Below, one piece after another: positions 30,583-44,231 of a stretch of 64,000 bases of DNA. Where the stretch lies: positions 124,001 through 188,000 of the forward strand of contig NZ_QEVW01000017.1 of NCBI RefSeq assembly GCF_003287275.1, in the 5' to 3' direction. The DNA comes from Paenibacillus taichungensis (GTDB lineage: Bacteria > Bacillota > Bacilli > Paenibacillales > Paenibacillaceae). The notes under the pieces were generated by a model. The model saw nothing but the letters and a program-made list of their open reading frames with translations. It made no database searches and was not told the origin of the DNA. A program made the position numbers and the translations under genes. Each line of letters begins with the position of its first letter. Positions within the stretch are counted from its first letter, which is position 1.

Positions 30583-30649
30583 ATTCACGAAAGAGTTCTT
30601 CTTTCTTTTATTACTTTAGTATGATTCATCTCGTGAATCATTCATGGTA

Positions 30650-32302
30650 TTAATTAACTGTTTTGAACCATTCATTGACTTCCGTTGTGATTTGGTCGCC
30701 GCCCATGGATTTCCATTTTGTCACGAACGCGTCAAATTCATCGATGCCGACCTGACCGTAAATGATTTTGCTGAACGTATCTTTCTCCAGCTTGTCGAGC
30801 GCATCTTTCTTCATCTTCATCGTATCCGTAGGTGCACCCGTAAATTTGTTCTTGATTGCATCATCCTTATGAGCTACCACGACTTGTGCCGCAGCGAATA
30901 CTTCAGGTTTGTTGGCAATTTTCGTATTTTTTTCAAATGGTGTTTCAGGCTCCTTGCCTGTAGCAAGTTCTGCCAACGTATCCATCATCAGGTTTGGAAT
31001 CCGTGCACCGTCATACGTAATTGTGTACTTGAGGGGGGATACCCCATCTTTCACTTCAGCCTCACCAAGCACTTTGCCATCTACAATATCAAAGTCATAT
31101 CCTTGGGCAAAGCCATGTTCAAACTCCCCGCCCACTTCTGGATTAGCGAAGTTATCGAACAAATAATTTTGATACGTGAAGAAAATTTCTGGGTTTACCA
31201 TATCCTTATTGATCAACACAACCCCGTTACTTGCACCCGAACCGTGGTGATGGCTTTCGCCAGTTGGTCCAGTTGGCAGGGCGATTGCTTTGTAGGTAGC
31301 GCCGTCCACATTTTTCTTCACATCATCGATTGGCCAGTTCGGCATCCAGTGTGGTCCGACAATGATTCCCGCTTTGCCTGCTGTAAACAGTTCGGCAGCC
31401 TTGATCTCGTCATATACGCCAGCTTCCTTCGGCAGATAACCTTTGGACAACCATTCTTTCATCGTTGCAAGTCCTTCTTTTACACCTGGTTGAACCGAGC
31501 CGTATTCCAGTGTTCCTTCTGCATTCAGATTCCACTGTCCTGGCATCGTGTTATACATTCCGAAGATCCAGCCAGATTCAGTCATCCAGGTATTGAGGGC
31601 ATTTTTCATGCCAACCGTCAGACCGTACGTATCTTTCTTACCGTTGCCATCCGGGTCCTGATTCGTAAAGGCATCCATCACCGTCACGAGCTCATCGATC
31701 GTTTTAGGTTCTTCCAGTCCCAGCTTCTTCAGCCAGTCTTCACGGATAAACATGACCGGGTCGCCATTGTAGGCATAGTCGAAGATCGGAATACCATAGC
31801 GTTTGCCTTCATACATGTACGGGTACCACTCTTCCGGTGCGGATTCAGCAGCCCCTTTCCATGTGTCGGATGCATACTTGTCGAACAATTCACCTGCATC
31901 GGCGAATTTACCCGATTCAATCAACTCACGCACCAGATTGTAGTCACCACGGATGGAGACGATATCCGGCAGCTCTTCGTTAGCCGACAGGGAGAGACGA
32001 AGCTTCGTGTAAAAAGCATCATTGGTCACGGACACAGCCCAAGGTGTAGTCAGGTCGATGCCCAGACGCTCTTTGGCCCATTTGGTATGCACGTTGTTCT
32101 GTGCAGTCTCTCCGTTCTTGAACTTTGTATCATCATTCCAGGCTCGCAAATAGCTCATCTGAACCGCAGGTTCATACTTGCCGTCTTGCAGCGCAAGTGG
32201 CGCAGCCGCTTCCTTGGATGGTTCTTCCTTTGCCCCCGAACTGCATGCCGTTACGGCAACCATCGTCAGTGCAAGCAATGCAGTCATCATTTTTCTATAC
32301 AT
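30650..32302 (-). CDS. Extracellular carbohydrate-binding lipoprotein (LplA/LipO-like)
   Basis: A 550-residue solute-binding protein of the large Paenibacillus/Bacillus LplA group that delivers oligosaccharides to CUT1 ABC importers. Signal peptide with lipobox VTAC (Cys20). Early SYLRAWNDD and the later FIREDWLKKLGLEEPKTIDEL, DPDGNGKKDTYGLT are characteristic of this group. GAGGAGGGG sets the start at 32302. It lies downstream of the YesN/YesM pair, while the two permeases are divergent from that pair at 35989. No glycoside hydrolase accompanies it, so the substrate is unknown. Confidence 0.92.
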   Translation of the reverse strand: MYRKMMTALLALTMVAVTACSSGAKEEPSKEAAAPLALQDGKYEPAVQMSYLRAWNDDTKFKNGETAQNNVHTKWAKERLGIDLTTPWAVSVTNDAFYTKLRLSLSANEELPDIVSIRGDYNLVRELIESGKFADAGELFDKYASDTWKGAAESAPEEWYPYMYEGKRYGIPIFDYAYNGDPVMFIREDWLKKLGLEEPKTIDELVTVMDAFTNQDPDGNGKKDTYGLTVGMKNALNTWMTESGWIFGMYNTMPGQWNLNAEGTLEYGSVQPGVKEGLATMKEWLSKGYLPKEAGVYDEIKAAELFTAGKAGIIVGPHWMPNWPIDDVKKNVDGATYKAIALPTGPTGESHHHGSGASNGVVLINKDMVNPEIFFTYQNYLFDNFANPEVGGEFEHGFAQGYDFDIVDGKVLGEAEVKDGVSPLKYTITYDGARIPNLMMDTLAELATGKEPETPFEKNTKIANKPEVFAAAQVVVAHKDDAIKNKFTGAPTDTMKMKKDALDKLEKDTFSKIIYGQVGIDEFDAFVTKWKSMGGDQITTEVNEWFKTVN

Positions 32303-32401
32303 GAAACCCCTCCTCAATCACTTTGAATGCCCTTACATGAAAAGGATAGTGCAGCCGGGGAAGCAAACATATATCACAATTTCAATGTTCATATTGATTT
32401 G

Positions 32402-38361: not shown

Positions 38362-39072
38362 CTAGTCCTCATAGTCTGCAAAAAAAACATCATTTAATAT
38401 GGTTTTTGCTTTCTTCAAATTCCGGGAATCCAACTTGTTGAGCATAGACATGATTTCATCCATTTCCTCGGTCAATGACGAAGAGCTATTAGCCTTATAA
38501 GCTTTTGAATCCTTGTTTGTAGGCGCATCTCTTCGGGCGGATTCATAAGTCTCCTCCTCTGTCTCCGAATGAATCCATGATGTATGCAGCGTCTTTTGGA
38601 GGGTGTTTACGAGAAACTGTAACTCATCCTCGTTATACCGTTGCAAGAAATGATGAACCCCAAGATCAATCTGATGATGCAGGCCCTGATGCAAACGATA
38701 AATCTCTTTTCCGAGCGATGTGGTACGGAATAGAACTTCTTTTTTGTTATCCGGAAGTGACTCGGTTACGATGATTTTTTGAGACACGAGTCTTCTCGTA
38801 ATCTTGGAGACAGTCCCTTTAGAGAATCCGAATTGTTTTGAAATGGTTATGCCGTTTACTGGTTCAAGTGTACCGATCGCATCCAGCACATGCAGCATTG
38901 TCACCGTCATTTCTTGGATTAGCTCTTCAACAGCCGGATTAGGACTATTTTGGATCAGCCACTGTTTTTCTTCGTCTTCTTCTGTTTGGAATCTGATCTG
39001 TATATCTTTCACTGCTTCCAGTACTTCTTGAATTAAGTGATCTTTATTTTGATTATCCGATGGGTTGATCAT
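38362..39072 (-). CDS. MarR-family regulator with C-terminal extension
   Basis: A 236-residue protein. The winged helix (about residues 60-135) includes ISKQFGFSKGTVSKITRRL and the wing region LFRTTSLGKEIYRLHQ. About 70 extra C-terminal residues, polar and helical (SSLTEEMDEIMSMLNKLDS), are unusual for MarR. Start set by GGAGG. It is divergent from the FAD monooxygenase, and three GTTTC/GAAAC repeats lie between the two genes. Confidence 0.87.
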   Translation of the reverse strand: MINPSDNQNKDHLIQEVLEAVKDIQIRFQTEEDEEKQWLIQNSPNPAVEELIQEMTVTMLHVLDAIGTLEPVNGITISKQFGFSKGTVSKITRRLVSQKIIVTESLPDNKKEVLFRTTSLGKEIYRLHQGLHHQIDLGVHHFLQRYNEDELQFLVNTLQKTLHTSWIHSETEEETYESARRDAPTNKDSKAYKANSSSSLTEEMDEIMSMLNKLDSRNLKKAKTILNDVFFADYED

Positions 39073-39250: not shown

Positions 39251-40813
39251 ATGGGTGATCAGGAGGAGATTCAACTGACCCAACATTACGATATTGACGT
39301 ACTCATCGCTGGAGCTGGACCGACTGGCTCCGCTCTTGCAGTCGACCTGCTTCGACGCGGCCTTCGTGTCCGACTCGTTGACAAAGCCCCTCACCCCTTT
39401 CAAGGTTCCCGTGCCAAGGGAATTCAACCAAGAACCCAAGAGATTTTGGAGGACTTCGGCGTGCTGGAAGAGGCTCAGTCAGAGGGAAGTTCTTACCCGC
39501 TTGCCGGTTTTCATATTGGACCGTTAACTTTGCCATGGCGCATGCAGCAGCAAAATAAACCAACACCGAGCGATCCGTATCCAAACATTCTCCTGTTGGC
39601 GCAGCACCGAACGGATGCCATCTTACACCGCCTATTGAAACAACTCGGCTTAATCATTGAATTTAACAACGGGTTGGAGCAATTCGAACAGGATACTGAT
39701 GGAGTGACGGTGACTCTCTCTTCCGGGGAGAAGGTTCGCAGCAGATATCTCGTCGGAGCAGATGGAGGTTCGAGCATCGTTCGCAAAGGGGCAGATATCC
39801 GATTTATTGGAGAGACTACCGACTCTGACCGTACACTCATCATCGACGGCTCGATCGACAAACTGTCTCGCAATAGGTGGCATATGTGGCCACGTACACG
39901 TGGCACGTTTGTCGGAGCCTGCCCTCTGCCACACTCCGACCAGTTCCAAGTTATGATCAGGCTGGCACCGGAAGAAAAGCCTAACCTAGACAAAGGCGCA
40001 CTCGCCGCTCAATTCCACAAACTCACAGGTTTGCGTCTCTACGACATTACCTGGAGTTCGCTGTTTCGTCCCAACGTTCGACTGGCTGAGCACTATCGGT
40101 CGGGTCGCGTCTTCATTGCAGGCGATGCTGCACATGTGCACACCCCGGCCGGTGCACAAGGTCTCAACACGGGTATACAGGACGCCTATAACCTCGGTTG
40201 GAAAATAGGGCAGGTCATTGCTGGGGCACCCGAGAGGTTGCTTGACAGCTATGAGACTGAGCGTCAACCGATTGCCGCTCGCGTCCTCAGCAAATCCAGC
40301 GAGCTATACGCCAAGCTAGACAAAAATCGCCTGGCTAGCCTCAAGCGTGGAGACGAGGAGCGACAGCTTAGACTTTCTTACCATGGTGGGCCGCTCGCGT
40401 CTAGCGAAGAAACGGCCACCAAAACACTTCATGTTGGTGACCGGGCGCCAGATGCTCCCTGCAATGGACCCGGTGGGGAACCACGTCTGTTCGACATCTA
40501 TCAGGGGCCTCACTTCACTTTGCTTGCCTTTGGACCTAACGCTGCCAAGTTACTCCCTAAGTTAAACTGGCCAACCAGCGGTGCCGAATTACACTGCTAC
40601 GTCGTTGGTACCACACACGAATCAGATCAGAAGATCCTCCATGACTCCAGCGGCAAGTTGACCCGTACCTACGGTATTACCAGCGAAACGCTGGTCTTGA
40701 TTCGCCCAGATGGTTATATCGGGAGCATCATCACGGCCGATTGGCAGGAAAGCTTCAACAATATAGCCAGAATGTTGGCTCCGCCGCAATCCATCGGGGC
40801 CAACCCGAATTGA
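39251..40813 (+). CDS. FAD-dependent aromatic monooxygenase (class A, PHBH-like)
   Basis: Up to 520 residues. Rossmann FAD motif VLIAGAGPTGSALAVDLLR, the DG motif LVGADGGSSIVRK and the second FAD motif RVFIAGDAAHVHTPAGAQGLN are all present. The C-terminal thioredoxin-like domain (about 395-510) is typical of phenol hydroxylase/rifampicin and polyketide hydroxylases. Such enzymes hydroxylate aromatic compounds or antibiotics with NAD(P)H and O2. ATG 39251 has no ribosome site, while AGGAGGAG lies six bases before an in-frame CTG at 39275; real translation may start there, giving 512 residues. Control by the divergent MarR regulator is inferred. Confidence 0.9.
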   Translation: MGDQEEIQLTQHYDIDVLIAGAGPTGSALAVDLLRRGLRVRLVDKAPHPFQGSRAKGIQPRTQEILEDFGVLEEAQSEGSSYPLAGFHIGPLTLPWRMQQQNKPTPSDPYPNILLLAQHRTDAILHRLLKQLGLIIEFNNGLEQFEQDTDGVTVTLSSGEKVRSRYLVGADGGSSIVRKGADIRFIGETTDSDRTLIIDGSIDKLSRNRWHMWPRTRGTFVGACPLPHSDQFQVMIRLAPEEKPNLDKGALAAQFHKLTGLRLYDITWSSLFRPNVRLAEHYRSGRVFIAGDAAHVHTPAGAQGLNTGIQDAYNLGWKIGQVIAGAPERLLDSYETERQPIAARVLSKSSELYAKLDKNRLASLKRGDEERQLRLSYHGGPLASSEETATKTLHVGDRAPDAPCNGPGGEPRLFDIYQGPHFTLLAFGPNAAKLLPKLNWPTSGAELHCYVVGTTHESDQKILHDSSGKLTRTYGITSETLVLIRPDGYIGSIITADWQESFNNIARMLAPPQSIGANPN

Positions 40814-40979: not shown

Positions 40980-41996
40980 TCATCTTAATCCAATATCCTC
41001 AAAACGATTGCCAATCGTCTCTGGGAATGCCTGCTTAATGGCATCGATGGCACGCTGTTCCGTTTCCCCTGCTTGCTCGATCAGACAGATCACCTTTTGC
41101 ACATGCCCCGGTTCTTTCGCATCCCACGCTGTTGAATCCTTAACCTTCTCCATCATCTGAGCATATAGGTCTGCAAGTAACGCATACTCCTGTACCACTT
41201 GATTCATCTGATTGGACAAATGCTTAAGCTCTCCAACATAGGAGGCCATATCCTTTCTTGAATTAGCATAATAGCGCAGAACCATGGCAGCTTGATCGGT
41301 TTCATATGCATCAGATTGTAGGGCATCAGCAATGGCTGCATAAGCAGCGGGTCCACATGCGTAATCCTGAGGAGGCAGCATATAGTCATGGGTTTCCCAT
41401 TTGTACACAGCCTGAATTAATGATTCTTTGCACACTTCCCATATGTCTACGGTTGTATGAGATTCAAGAACCTGATAGTACCAGTATGGTGTACTGTTTC
41501 GACCAAAAGAATCATAGGGCAGACGAATGACTTCATTTTCTTGACTCTCACAAATGAACAGCACCTGCTCCCCATCATCATATCCAGCACAAATAACAAA
41601 CTGATCATGCCACAGAATAGCACCTACACCCCGGTCAATGGAAGCCTTGATATCCAGCAGGGCCTGCTTCTGATAGAGCGGAAAGGTTGGCACGAACGAA
41701 AATCCCCCTGACTGACTCGCTGTCACACCAATGAAATCAGCAGCTACAAAGTTCTCGGCCATCCAATTGTACGCCGAGATCGATTCTGTCGTTAGACGCC
41801 GATCTACCACCAGACGAAACACATTTGCAGTCATGCCCGCAATCATGTGACGCGGTAAATTCGTCCACTGCTTGTGTATTAGAATACGATACATCGCATC
41901 GAGGTACGAGCCTGCGCCGCTCCAGTATAGTTGTTCATCCGCCAAATTCTGAGTCTGTGCAAAACGAATCAACTCCGGCAGAGTTTTACTCCCCAT
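40980..41996 (-). CDS. Uncharacterised protein, BtrH/C39-like fold, second paralogue
   Basis: A 338-residue soluble protein, homologous over its length to the next gene upstream. Shared features in order: a helix with AGMTANVFRLVVDRRL, DRGVGAILWHDQFVICAGYDDG (strand-His/Ala-Gly-Tyr-Asp-Asp), a WYYQVL strand, and a helical C-terminal half. The arrangement of a glycine-rich strand followed by GYDD resembles papain-like C39/BtrH N-terminal domains, but no catalytic Cys is in place, so it may be a non-enzymatic member. Third gene of a WYL-paralogue-paralogue operon, 18 bases after the previous one. Confidence 0.7.
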   Translation of the reverse strand: MGSKTLPELIRFAQTQNLADEQLYWSGAGSYLDAMYRILIHKQWTNLPRHMIAGMTANVFRLVVDRRLTTESISAYNWMAENFVAADFIGVTASQSGGFSFVPTFPLYQKQALLDIKASIDRGVGAILWHDQFVICAGYDDGEQVLFICESQENEVIRLPYDSFGRNSTPYWYYQVLESHTTVDIWEVCKESLIQAVYKWETHDYMLPPQDYACGPAAYAAIADALQSDAYETDQAAMVLRYYANSRKDMASYVGELKHLSNQMNQVVQEYALLADLYAQMMEKVKDSTAWDAKEPGHVQKVICLIEQAGETEQRAIDAIKQAFPETIGNRFEDIGLR

Positions 41997-42014
41997 CACC
42001 TTATCCTCCCTCCC

Positions 42015-43013
42015 CTACCTTGCCGAATGTGCTCCCCAACGTGGCACAGTGGTACGTTTACGATCTGGATACTTTAGGGATATCAAACGAAAATAATCAA
42101 CAGCCTGCTCTTCCAATGCTTTCGCTTCCAATAAAATCTGTGCCAGCTTCTCTGTGGTGTCTGCCTGCATAATCCATCTGTTATGTTCCTGAATCATGCA
42201 TCCCTTCATCTGAATAATCAGTGCTCCAAGCTGTTCATAACACGCATGGGCTTGGTCCAGCTCGGTCCATATCCCCCGCGCATCCTGCAAATACAACTGA
42301 ATTTCAGTTCGGGACTGGCAATAGGATTGCAAAATATACACAGCACCCGATTCATCGTAATCTCCACTCCGAAGGGCCTCTACCCACACATCATACGCCA
42401 TTCTGCCCGAAACGATATTCCGATCAGGCAGTAGACGATAAGGGATATCCCAATCCTCAATCGCCAATCTCAATGATTCCAACAGCATCTCTTGTTCAGG
42501 GATATGTACCTGATCACCAAAGACCTGACAGTACCAGAACCCGGTGAAGTTTAATCCGAAATTGTCATACAGCATAATCTGTGGTTCCTTGCTCCAGCCA
42601 TCTTGCACATAAAAGATGCGATCACTGTCATCATACCCATGAATAACACCAAATTCCGGAATCCAGTAGATAACTCCTACGCCCCCATCCAGACTGCGCT
42701 TCACCCAATTTACCGCATCCCTCTGGTAATACCCGAATGTGGGATGACGTGTCCGCCCCCCATCCCAGATCGTGAATATCCCCAAGTTATCGATCCCAGG
42801 GCGATGAGATTCTCCCCATTGACCATAGGCTGTAACGGACATGGGCAGCAGTCTGCGATGCACTGAAAGTTTGAATGCCATACCCGTATATCCAGCGAGC
42901 ACATACTTGGAACCCTGAAACAGACCCGCATGGGTCAATACAGCGTGTAGGCTATCCACATACGATTTGGACTCCCGCTTCATGATCAGGTTGTCTAACG
43001 CAACTTCAGTCAA
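42015..43013 (-). CDS. Uncharacterised protein, BtrH/C39-like fold, first paralogue
   Basis: A 332-residue soluble protein, TTG start at 43013 with GAGGAG 8 bases upstream. It shares with its neighbour the sequence AGYTGMAFKLSVHRRL, DGGVGVIYWIPEFGVIHGYDD, a WYCQVF strand and similar helical C-terminal half. The His in GVIHGYDD is at the position of the catalytic His of C39-like folds and is missing in the second paralogue; no obvious Cys partner exists in either. Function unknown. Cotranscribed with the WYL regulator 30 bases upstream. Confidence 0.7.
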   Translation of the reverse strand: MTEVALDNLIMKRESKSYVDSLHAVLTHAGLFQGSKYVLAGYTGMAFKLSVHRRLLPMSVTAYGQWGESHRPGIDNLGIFTIWDGGRTRHPTFGYYQRDAVNWVKRSLDGGVGVIYWIPEFGVIHGYDDSDRIFYVQDGWSKEPQIMLYDNFGLNFTGFWYCQVFGDQVHIPEQEMLLESLRLAIEDWDIPYRLLPDRNIVSGRMAYDVWVEALRSGDYDESGAVYILQSYCQSRTEIQLYLQDARGIWTELDQAHACYEQLGALIIQMKGCMIQEHNRWIMQADTTEKLAQILLEAKALEEQAVDYFRLISLKYPDRKRTTVPRWGAHSAR

Positions 43014-43043
43014 AAAAAATCTCCTCTCTATGGTTGTTCCAAT

Positions 43044-43958
43044 TCAGGTTTGCCTTGAGCTCATTGCAAGCCTGTCGATTATTCCTTCAGCACTTTGCTG
43101 GAGCTTTCGTCTAAGCCACGTTGGAGACAACAGTTCCTCCCACTCGGTAACGAACAAATGCTGTAAGAACGCCTCCGTATCATAAAATTCAATCCAGTGG
43201 ACCTGATCTTGATTCTCCCGAATCCGATATCCTTGCCACAGCTCTGTGTGCTGCACTTCTCTCATTCTTATCTTAGCGACAAACGGTTTACGGACAGGCA
43301 TCGACTCTTCCCATCCCCCCAGCAAACCGTCTGTCTGACACTGAAACGTATCGTTCGTCATCTGCACATGAATCATGCCCTCCAGCCGGATAGCCGTTTG
43401 CTGTAAAGGGTCGAATTCATAGCCAACGACATAATCGGCGTTGAACTGGGACACCATCTTCAATGGGCACCAGGTAAATTGCCTTTCTCCGGCATGATCT
43501 TTGTAATGGATATGTACTTTGCGGGATTCGGCAATCGCATGGGACAAAATCTCAAAGGACTGAAGCTGTTGCGGATCTGCTTTAAACACAGGAAGCTGAC
43601 TGCTCCCCGTCTGCTGTTTCTCAAGCGTAAAACGCTCCAGCAAATGCGCCACACGCTTCACCGCATCCGACTGATCATAATTGTAATGCCTGTAACGATG
43701 TGCCAGATACTTAAGCACCTGCTGTTCTTCTTCCGTCATATATAAATGGGGCAGCCGGTAGGTCTGATCCTCGTAACAATACCCCCGATATTTTGCTATA
43801 TACACCAGGGGGGCACGTAGAGAAATCGCCATATATTCAATATCACGCTGGGCTTGGCGCCGGGATATTTCAAATTCACGTGCCAGCCAGCTGCTGTTCG
43901 GAAAACGTCCACTCCGAATCTGCTCGTCAAACCAATGAATACGATGCATATTGCTCAT
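43044..43958 (-). CDS. WYL-domain transcriptional regulator (YafY/DeoR-type HTH)
   Basis: A 304-residue regulator. N-terminal winged helix RFPNSSWLAREFEISRRQAQRDIEYM and central WYL-type domain (about 140-220) with KVHIHYKDHAGERQFTWCPLKMV and ADYVVGYEF. WYL regulators often bind nucleic acid or nucleotides and control stress, DNA-damage and defence functions. GGGGCGGGGAA precedes the start. First gene of an operon with the two paralogous unknown proteins; a TATAAT box is at 44002-43997. Confidence 0.88.
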   Translation of the reverse strand: MSNMHRIHWFDEQIRSGRFPNSSWLAREFEISRRQAQRDIEYMAISLRAPLVYIAKYRGYCYEDQTYRLPHLYMTEEEQQVLKYLAHRYRHYNYDQSDAVKRVAHLLERFTLEKQQTGSSQLPVFKADPQQLQSFEILSHAIAESRKVHIHYKDHAGERQFTWCPLKMVSQFNADYVVGYEFDPLQQTAIRLEGMIHVQMTNDTFQCQTDGLLGGWEESMPVRKPFVAKIRMREVQHTELWQGYRIRENQDQVHWIEFYDTEAFLQHLFVTEWEELLSPTWLRRKLQQSAEGIIDRLAMSSRQT

Positions 43959-44003
43959 TTCCCCGCCCCCTGGCTCGTTCCGTATTTAGTAATTGTATTA
44001 TAC

Positions 44004-44035
44004 CAAAAGACATGGCCCGTTCCGAAGAACAGGCC
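44004..44035 (-). terminator. Terminator of the zinc-ribbon gene
   Basis: Minus strand GGCCTGTTC-TTCG-GAACGGGCC, a nine-pair stem with a UUCG tetraloop, followed by ATGTCTTTT. It overlaps the promoter region of the WYL operon. Confidence 0.65.
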
Positions 44036-44042
44036 TGTTATG

Positions 44043-44231
44043 TTATACGGTTACTTTGTCCACTCTGGACTGCACGGCTTTGGAGCATTTCTTGCATACT
44101 TTCAGACTCGTACCATCTGTTTTCGTTTGCGAATACAACAATTTAATCCGGGTGCTGCTGCACACCGGGCATGTTCCTCTTCCTCGGGATGGTAGATTCC
44201 ACAGGACGCGTCCTCTTTTTGTTTTTGCCAA
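44043..44231 (-). CDS. Small zinc-ribbon protein, 62 aa
   Basis: Start TTG 44231 with AGAGG about 10 bases upstream gives MAKTKRGRVLWNLPS. Two CxxC pairs, CPVC and CKKC, form a zinc ribbon around IKLLYSQTKTDGTSLKV. A longer frame exists upstream but without a ribosome site and with non-protein-like residues. Small zinc ribbons of this type may bind RNA, ribosome or be a nucleic-acid accessory; function unknown. Own promoter likely. Confidence 0.65.
   Translation of the reverse strand: MAKTKRGRVLWNLPSRGRGTCPVCSSTRIKLLYSQTKTDGTSLKVCKKCSKAVQSRVDKVTV

Follow-up and report, generated by a model that had tools for sequence, protein, structure and literature searches.

The locus occupies the minus strand of a contig of Paenibacillus taichungensis, of which we analyzed a stretch of 64,000 nucleotides (hereafter, the window). 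It comprises three co-directional open reading frames, in the order WYL, A, B. The first operon gene encodes a 304-aa WYL-domain transcription regulator (43044..43958, minus strand; identified by Pfam, PADLOC and synteny) and is followed after 30 bp by the gene for protein A (332 aa, 42015..43013, minus strand), which starts with TTG preceded by AGAGGAG, and, after a further 15 bp, by the gene for its paralogue, protein B (339 aa, 40980..41999, minus strand). The WYL domain of the regulator scored 28.5 bits against a Pfam cut-off of 21.8 and was matched by the PADLOC WYL model at 5.6e-19, alongside a weak match to Cas3c; at its N-terminus, Pfam returned HTH_11 at E 0.21, below cut-off. A and B align over 294 aa with 29% identity (E 4e-43). 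The initial annotation, made from the sequence alone, had described a WYL regulator heading an operon of two homologous proteins of about 330 residues, and the coordinates, the short gaps, the Pfam score and this alignment agree with it on each of these points.

Upstream of the WYL gene lies a TATAAT (43997..44002, minus strand), the probable -10 element of WYL-A-B, and a TTTGRTATAAT motif is present at this place in 13 out of 14 aligned upstream regions, the exception being L047. A scan with a promoter consensus did not list the TATAAT, for want of a -35 element, and returned four sites in the region versus 7.3 in shuffled sequences; terminator-like sites numbered five, versus 3.4 on average in shuffles. 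One such hairpin (44014..44035, minus strand) separates the WYL gene from the gene of a 62-aa zinc-ribbon-like protein with four cysteines (44043..44231, minus strand), which is syntenic with the cassette and gave weak Pfam zinc-ribbon matches below cut-off. As both the hairpin and the conserved motif precede the WYL gene, WYL-A-B is probably driven by its own promoter, and the zinc-ribbon gene probably sits on a separate transcript. The zinc-ribbon family also occurs in genomes outside the list of those with an A/B-family match, for instance G194 and G213.

Sequence databases assigned neither protein to a family. Pfam and NCBIfam gave no match above cut-off for A or B, PF14399 (BtrH_N) was not listed for either and had no match over cut-off in the organism's own genome, and a PHROGs search returned nothing useful. 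Profile comparison and structure prediction were more informative. Aligned with hhalign, the family profile A6 matched that of canonical BtrH_N rows (A7) with 96.8% probability and E 2.8e-10 over 290 columns; a PDB sequence search with A6 returned as best match a designed protein, aligned in the helical part. AlphaFold models of A and B had mean pLDDT values of 81.6 and 85.0, respectively, and matched whole AziU2-U3, CtaG and CcbD chains over 257-280 residues, with VIA Z scores of 14.3-18.1 and rmsd values of 3.9-6.3. For A, the matches were AziU2-U3 (8gs1; Z 16.5, 275 aligned residues, rmsd 6.3), CtaG (9qvj; Z 15.8, 260 residues, rmsd 4.8) and CcbD (9dks; Z 15.3, 269 residues, rmsd 5.2); for B, Z was 18.1, 17.4 and 17.0. 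Foldseek likewise placed AziU3-type chains first for both proteins (E 1.2e-6 for A and 7.8e-7 for B), with modest TM-scores of 0.44-0.50. Single-domain papain-like chains ranked lower (VIA Z up to 12.6), and the C39-like chain 3erv, at 11.9 for A and 10.5 for B, fell below AziU3, CtaG and CcbD; absence of a chain from the VIA lists was not counted as evidence.

A and B are thus predicted to adopt a complete two-domain BtrH-type fold, consisting of a papain-like domain and a C-terminal helical domain, and a BtrH-type ancestry among carrier-dependent acyltransferases is supported by fold and profile alike. BtrH itself is an acyl carrier protein:aminoglycoside acyltransferase according to PMC10318531, and PMC12945683 describes CcbD as a condensing enzyme that is carrier-dependent and has a Cys-His-Glu triad. 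With BtrH_N (PF14399), CcbD/LmbD, CtaG and AziU3, the two proteins share the whole two-domain arrangement, including the helix of the cysteine site, the histidine-site strand before a GYDD-like motif and the third acidic residue. The C39/BtrH-like core proposed in the initial annotation is therefore confirmed, by the hhalign match and by both models; an ordinary known enzyme family, named there as an outcome that would speak against the proposal, did not emerge for A or B from Pfam or NCBIfam.

The resemblance ends at the catalytic residues. The profile alignment places the canonical Cys, His and Asp on Ser17 (codon 42963..42965, minus strand, from hhalign and computed from the ORF start), Glu120 (42654..42656) and Asp138 (42600..42602) of A, the latter two codons, also on the minus strand, being placed by profile and family alignment; in B, Ser31 and Gln133 occupy the cysteine and histidine sites. 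Both proteins hence also differ from C39 peptidases, whose core Cys and His sites are occupied here by Ser and by Glu or Gln. The absence of a catalytic cysteine had been noted from the sequence and is borne out by the serine at the aligned site of both copies. In contrast, the statement that one copy keeps the histidine does not hold: the catalytic register lies six residues before the GYDD-like motif, where E120 and Q133 are found, whereas H125 of A, within HGYDD, is out of register and is replaced by Y, S or C in some of the 17 A orthologues compared. With the triad missing, A and B as an ordinary active C39/BtrH enzyme were ruled out.

The same substitutions run through the wider family. 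Across 111 family rows, aligned to the family's own model, which may favor dead members, and including fragments and rows that overlap another row of the same gene, the cysteine site held S in 53, T in 16, P in three and A, R, M or V in one each (35 gaps), and the histidine site held E in 84, Q in four, D in three and A, R or K in one each (17 gaps). Cysteine was thus found in none of the 76 readable rows at the first site and histidine in none of 94 at the second, which sets this family apart from BtrH_N, CcbD, CtaG and AziU3. The third site was looser, with D in 49 rows, S in nine, E in eight, N and G in seven each, A and T in four each and H in two (21 gaps). Among the cassettes compared, every A row carried Ser and Glu, while the histidine site of B varied between Q, A, S, R, G and E. 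Retention of a glutamate in place of the histidine points to a pocket function retained in A rather than lost by decay, an argument that covers A and the other relatives better than B because of the variable B site; B looks the more degenerate of the two.

Conserved replacement residues could also mean that A, B and their family are still enzymes, using a cysteine-independent chemistry such as a Ser/Thr-Glu-Asp arrangement. The high frequencies of S or T at the first site (69 of 76 readable rows) and of E at the second (84 of 94) would be consistent with such a chemistry, and aziridine formation in azinomycin employs the AziU3 fold. However, the third site retains D in only 49 of 90 readable rows, the histidine site of B varies, and a comparison of a set of window genes across 23 loci showed no biosynthetic gene that was conserved together with the cassette. 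We consider continued catalysis quite improbable. A gene for an FAD-binding monooxygenase was among the window neighbors compared across the loci.

The cassette itself proved to be a stable unit. Loci fetched with A alone as query contained the zinc-ribbon gene, WYL, A and B in that order in 23 out of 23 cases, and the arrangement was intact in four loci (L045, L046, L054 and L055) although the MFS and ArsR neighbors of the window were not found there. In other genomes of the Paenibacillaceae, the four genes stood in order in 19 of 20 regions, which had been picked for pair-like matches with no regard to the regulator; the remaining one, L107, is a remnant. Within the genus, 42 of 75 genomes had a match to A, each with an adjoining match to B as read from the match list, so that presence of the cassette is patchy. 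In the same genus set, G006 carried only a sigma-linked relative and G022 only B-like pieces. Individual damaged copies occur as well: the match to A is in two pieces in L053, G033 and G055 and begins only at the codon region of residue 102 in L051 (all of these probably overlapping strains), B is short in G058, and only B-like pieces persist in G022/L107. As a general state, pseudogene decay was ruled out by a codon comparison with six relatives, in which A, B and WYL showed an excess of third-position changes and mostly synonymous single changes.

At the level of sequence, the 23/23 recurrence and the codon constraint make the WYL-A-B arrangement more than chance. The neighborhood survey thereby confirmed the expectation that the regulator and both copies travel together, and the opposite outcome, homologues scattered without regulator or duplication, did not occur among close homologues of A at these 23 loci. 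Some more distant relatives do lack WYL, and most of these stand with other regulators.

Patchy presence in the genus (42 of 75 genomes) would also suit a WYL-controlled defense or stress-conflict module, and according to PMC4012209 and PMC9122588 some defense systems are under WYL control. Against this, PADLOC gave no match for A, B or the zinc-ribbon protein and recognized the regulator only through generic WYL models and the weak Cas3c hit, no phage match was found for A, and the four cassette genes include no recognized toxin or nuclease. A plasmid search yielded a single Paenibacillus record, 2.7 Mb long and with no features listed at the matching place. The link to defense raised in the initial annotation was accordingly not borne out, and we regard a defense role as highly improbable.

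A tree of 118 domains, calculated by a quick method without bootstrap, placed A and B in two sister clades of 23 rows each (SH-aLRT 100), with clade membership stated from gene position. As judged from these protein sequences, the duplication is shown to be an old one. Next to the A and B clades (99) came four rows belonging to other families within the phylum, two of which (L141 and L144) are WYL-linked. Regulator labels mapped on the tree required 26 changes, compared to a mean of 74 after shuffling; these labels derive from motif patterns, by which some cassette genes were misfiled as 'other'.

Both proteins end in a short conserved tail. Among the last 16 residues, those identical in 20 out of 20 cassettes were, in A (tail at 42018..42062, minus strand), a D, two R and the W and, in B (40983..41021, minus strand), an E, one R and the terminal LR, although the helical stretch before either tail varied. 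In the models, the chain ends have a pLDDT of about 35, with values below 50 at residues 319-332 of A and over the last ten residues of B (330-339). Such conservation suggests that the tails may dock to a partner. No tail of this kind is present in the WYL fusion L141.

In the organism's own genome, a 599-aa protein combines sigma regions 2 and 4 with a C-terminal relative of A and B. Situated 37 bp upstream of the gene for this sigma fusion is a homologue, L057, that has C, H and D aligned at the canonical sites. Within the family to which the window belongs (taken as Paenibacillaceae), 190 of 394 genomes contained a match, as did 32 of 398 genomes of a phylum sample, 27 of these outside that family. 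We took a census of 63 rows from 21 hand-picked genomes, a set from which rows spanning fewer than 100 residues were dropped and which includes fragments of broken genes and both genes of each cassette. Here, 24 rows were fused to a sigma factor, 16 lay behind one and 12 lay behind WYL (five cassettes and one remnant), one row each preceded a sigma or a WYL gene, and nine had no regulator by the models used. One of these nine, L120, is fused to a GyrI-like domain and has a sigma gene upstream of its long fused ORF, so that 55 of 63 rows are counted as regulator-linked (54 by the script alone). The split depends on the distance rule: an earlier rule gave 46 linked rows and seven with a regulator nearby, since over-long ORF starts overlapped the regulators, and the rule was then changed.

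Fusions also extend beyond sigma factors. Of 32 rows in the phylum set, from which one G469 place and short rows were left out and which includes one locus (L224) from the window's own family, one was fused to WYL and four to AraC, four lay behind and one before an AraC gene, and two lay behind WYL, giving 12 linked rows overall and leaving 20 without a sigma, WYL or AraC regulator by these models, which counts against a regulatory role. L141 encodes WYL and a pseudo-BtrH domain in a single 642-aa ORF, in which Pfam confirmed the WYL domain; among the AraC fusions (L219, L223, L228 and L229), Pfam confirmed the AraC HTH in L219 and L228. Sigma regions 2 and 4 were likewise seen by Pfam before the pseudo-BtrH domain in L003, L091, L112, L116 and L198, region 4 of L112 scoring below cut-off.

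Because the regulator models themselves derive from regulators adjacent to these very genes, linkage counts of this kind are partly circular. As a control, we scored canonical BtrH_N loci with the same sigma, WYL and AraC models and found neither a linked regulator nor a fusion at any of 26 loci; at a looser threshold, one out of 16 canonical loci had an upstream AraC gene. Pfam analysis of ten genes upstream of canonical BtrH_N, in turn, revealed PadR in four cases and AraC in one, and a similarity search located a PadR gene beside nine of the 16 strong PF14399 loci L162-L177. One more of these has an AraC neighbor, so that 10 of 16 closely related canonical genes adjoin a regulator. Adjacency alone therefore cannot separate dead from live members, and the argument rests on the fusions to three regulator classes.

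The control also bears on the possibility that A and B are products rather than partners of regulation, that is, ligand-binding or sequestering proteins whose expression WYL controls and which might bind, for example, antibiotics, amino-sugars or carrier proteins. The order WYL-A-B is a usual layout of a regulator and its targets, canonical BtrH_N genes adjoin PadR regulators too, and some relatives have no detected regulator. The fusions, however, fit a regulatory input better, and we judge control of A and B as mere output to be rather unlikely. Fusion of their relatives to regulators of three unrelated classes makes A and B probable signal sensors rather than enzymes. We therefore favor, with a probability of roughly 60%, the interpretation that A and B are neofunctionalized pseudoenzymes of the complete BtrH/CcbD/CtaG/AziU3 fold that act as sensing partners of their WYL regulator. 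The initial annotation had spoken of a duplicated pseudo-enzyme pair with its own regulator; such a pair is indeed present, as a conserved cassette nested in a wider family with links to sigma, WYL and AraC regulators.

In the sensing mechanism we propose, the former active-site pocket, above all that of A, would bind a small molecule or a carrier-borne acyl group, and the glutamate in place of the histidine would favor an amine-bearing ligand. The regulator would register binding through direct contact, for which the conserved C-terminal tails of A and B may serve in the cassette, and transcription of a regulon that probably includes the WYL-A-B operon itself would change as a result. A broader version, which we put forward only tentatively, holds that in Bacillota WYL, ECF-type sigma and AraC regulators all draw on the dead acyltransferase superfamily as a general signal-input domain, which would read amine-bearing or carrier-tethered metabolites, such as nascent natural products, through the former active site with its conserved glutamate; A and B would then represent a two-channel form, with their conserved tails docking them on WYL.

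Regulators with added sensory modules provide several points of comparison. GyrI-like effector-binding domains are used in several regulators, and the Pfam description of this domain, a small-molecule-binding module, parallels the role considered here, with L120 joining one to a pseudo-BtrH domain behind a sigma gene; in Pfam, the GyrI-like domain is a separate family. WYL regulators with ligand-binding roles include PafBC, DriD and CapW, and the WYL module senses ligands such as single-stranded DNA. The cassette shares a WYL regulator with these three systems, yet stands apart in that WYL and pseudo-BtrH are consistently encoded together and in one instance form a single protein. Similar to the extended ECF sigma factors reviewed in PMC8999054, relatives of A and B form C-terminal sigma extensions (24 of 63 census rows); unlike those extensions, they have a dead acyltransferase fold, no such extension being named in the available part of that review, and the cassette of the window uses WYL. 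Unlike BtrH_N, CcbD, CtaG and AziU3, finally, A and B are missed by Pfam and their family is encoded with, or fused to, transcription regulators.

The BtrH-type fold, WYL regulators and ECF extensions are each of a known kind, while the literature searched contained no regulator-linked pseudoenzyme family that combines them; within open-licence PMC articles, a collection that leaves most subscription journals outside, we recognized nothing as the A/B family. Our analysis thus describes a family of regulator-linked pseudoenzymes; Pfam missed it in the members tested, despite its presence in 190 of 394 genomes of the Paenibacillaceae. If the sensor reading is true, an enzyme fold of antibiotic biosynthesis would have been reused as a transcriptional sensor, and the family would offer a testable handle on the signals of the unassigned ECF-type sigma factors and WYL regulators in these bacteria.

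Ahead of the cassette, which comprises the WYL regulator and paralogues A and B, lies a conserved gene for a 62-residue, zinc-ribbon-like protein with four cysteines (window 44043-44231, minus strand). Matches to this protein were found in 80 of 148 genomes of the family, including some that are absent from the list of A/B-family matches. The cassette adjoins a FAD-binding monooxygenase (39251-40813, plus strand), beside which a MarR-like regulator is encoded (38362-39072, minus strand); these two genes are present in only part of the 23 relatives whose cassette loci were fetched using A as query (L040, L041, L051). Elsewhere in the window, a 560-aa ORF (30644-32326, plus strand) gave no match in a Pfam search at 1e-5; nearly its whole length is overlapped by a 555-aa reading frame running on the opposite strand.

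Pseudo-BtrH domains, that is, predicted BtrH-type folds lacking Cys and His at the catalytic sites wherever these are readable, also occur in other architectures. On contig C52 of the same genome, one is fused to an ECF-type sigma factor (L003 1204-3003, minus strand), and a BtrH-like gene retaining C, H and D (L057 991-1965, minus strand) lies upstream within 37 bp; as judged by eye, a similar gene likewise precedes the fusion at locus L112. The genome additionally encodes a 487-aa BtrH-like protein (L056 532-1995, minus strand), with a C terminus that appears ACP-like and an esterase-like gene before it, both by visual inspection. At two loci, a sigma fusion is followed by two more pseudo-BtrH genes in tandem (L194 1814-5650 and L218 1792-5530, both plus strand). 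Lectin-like Laminin_G_3 domains precede pseudo-BtrH domains within single ORFs (L207 2575-4350 and L210 4578-6368, both minus strand); at L210, a gene for a sigma factor and another for a second pseudo-BtrH protein come after this ORF. Finally, an 838-aa ORF (L198 1800-4316, plus strand) combines a sigma factor with a pseudo-BtrH domain and carries a glyoxalase domain at its C terminus.
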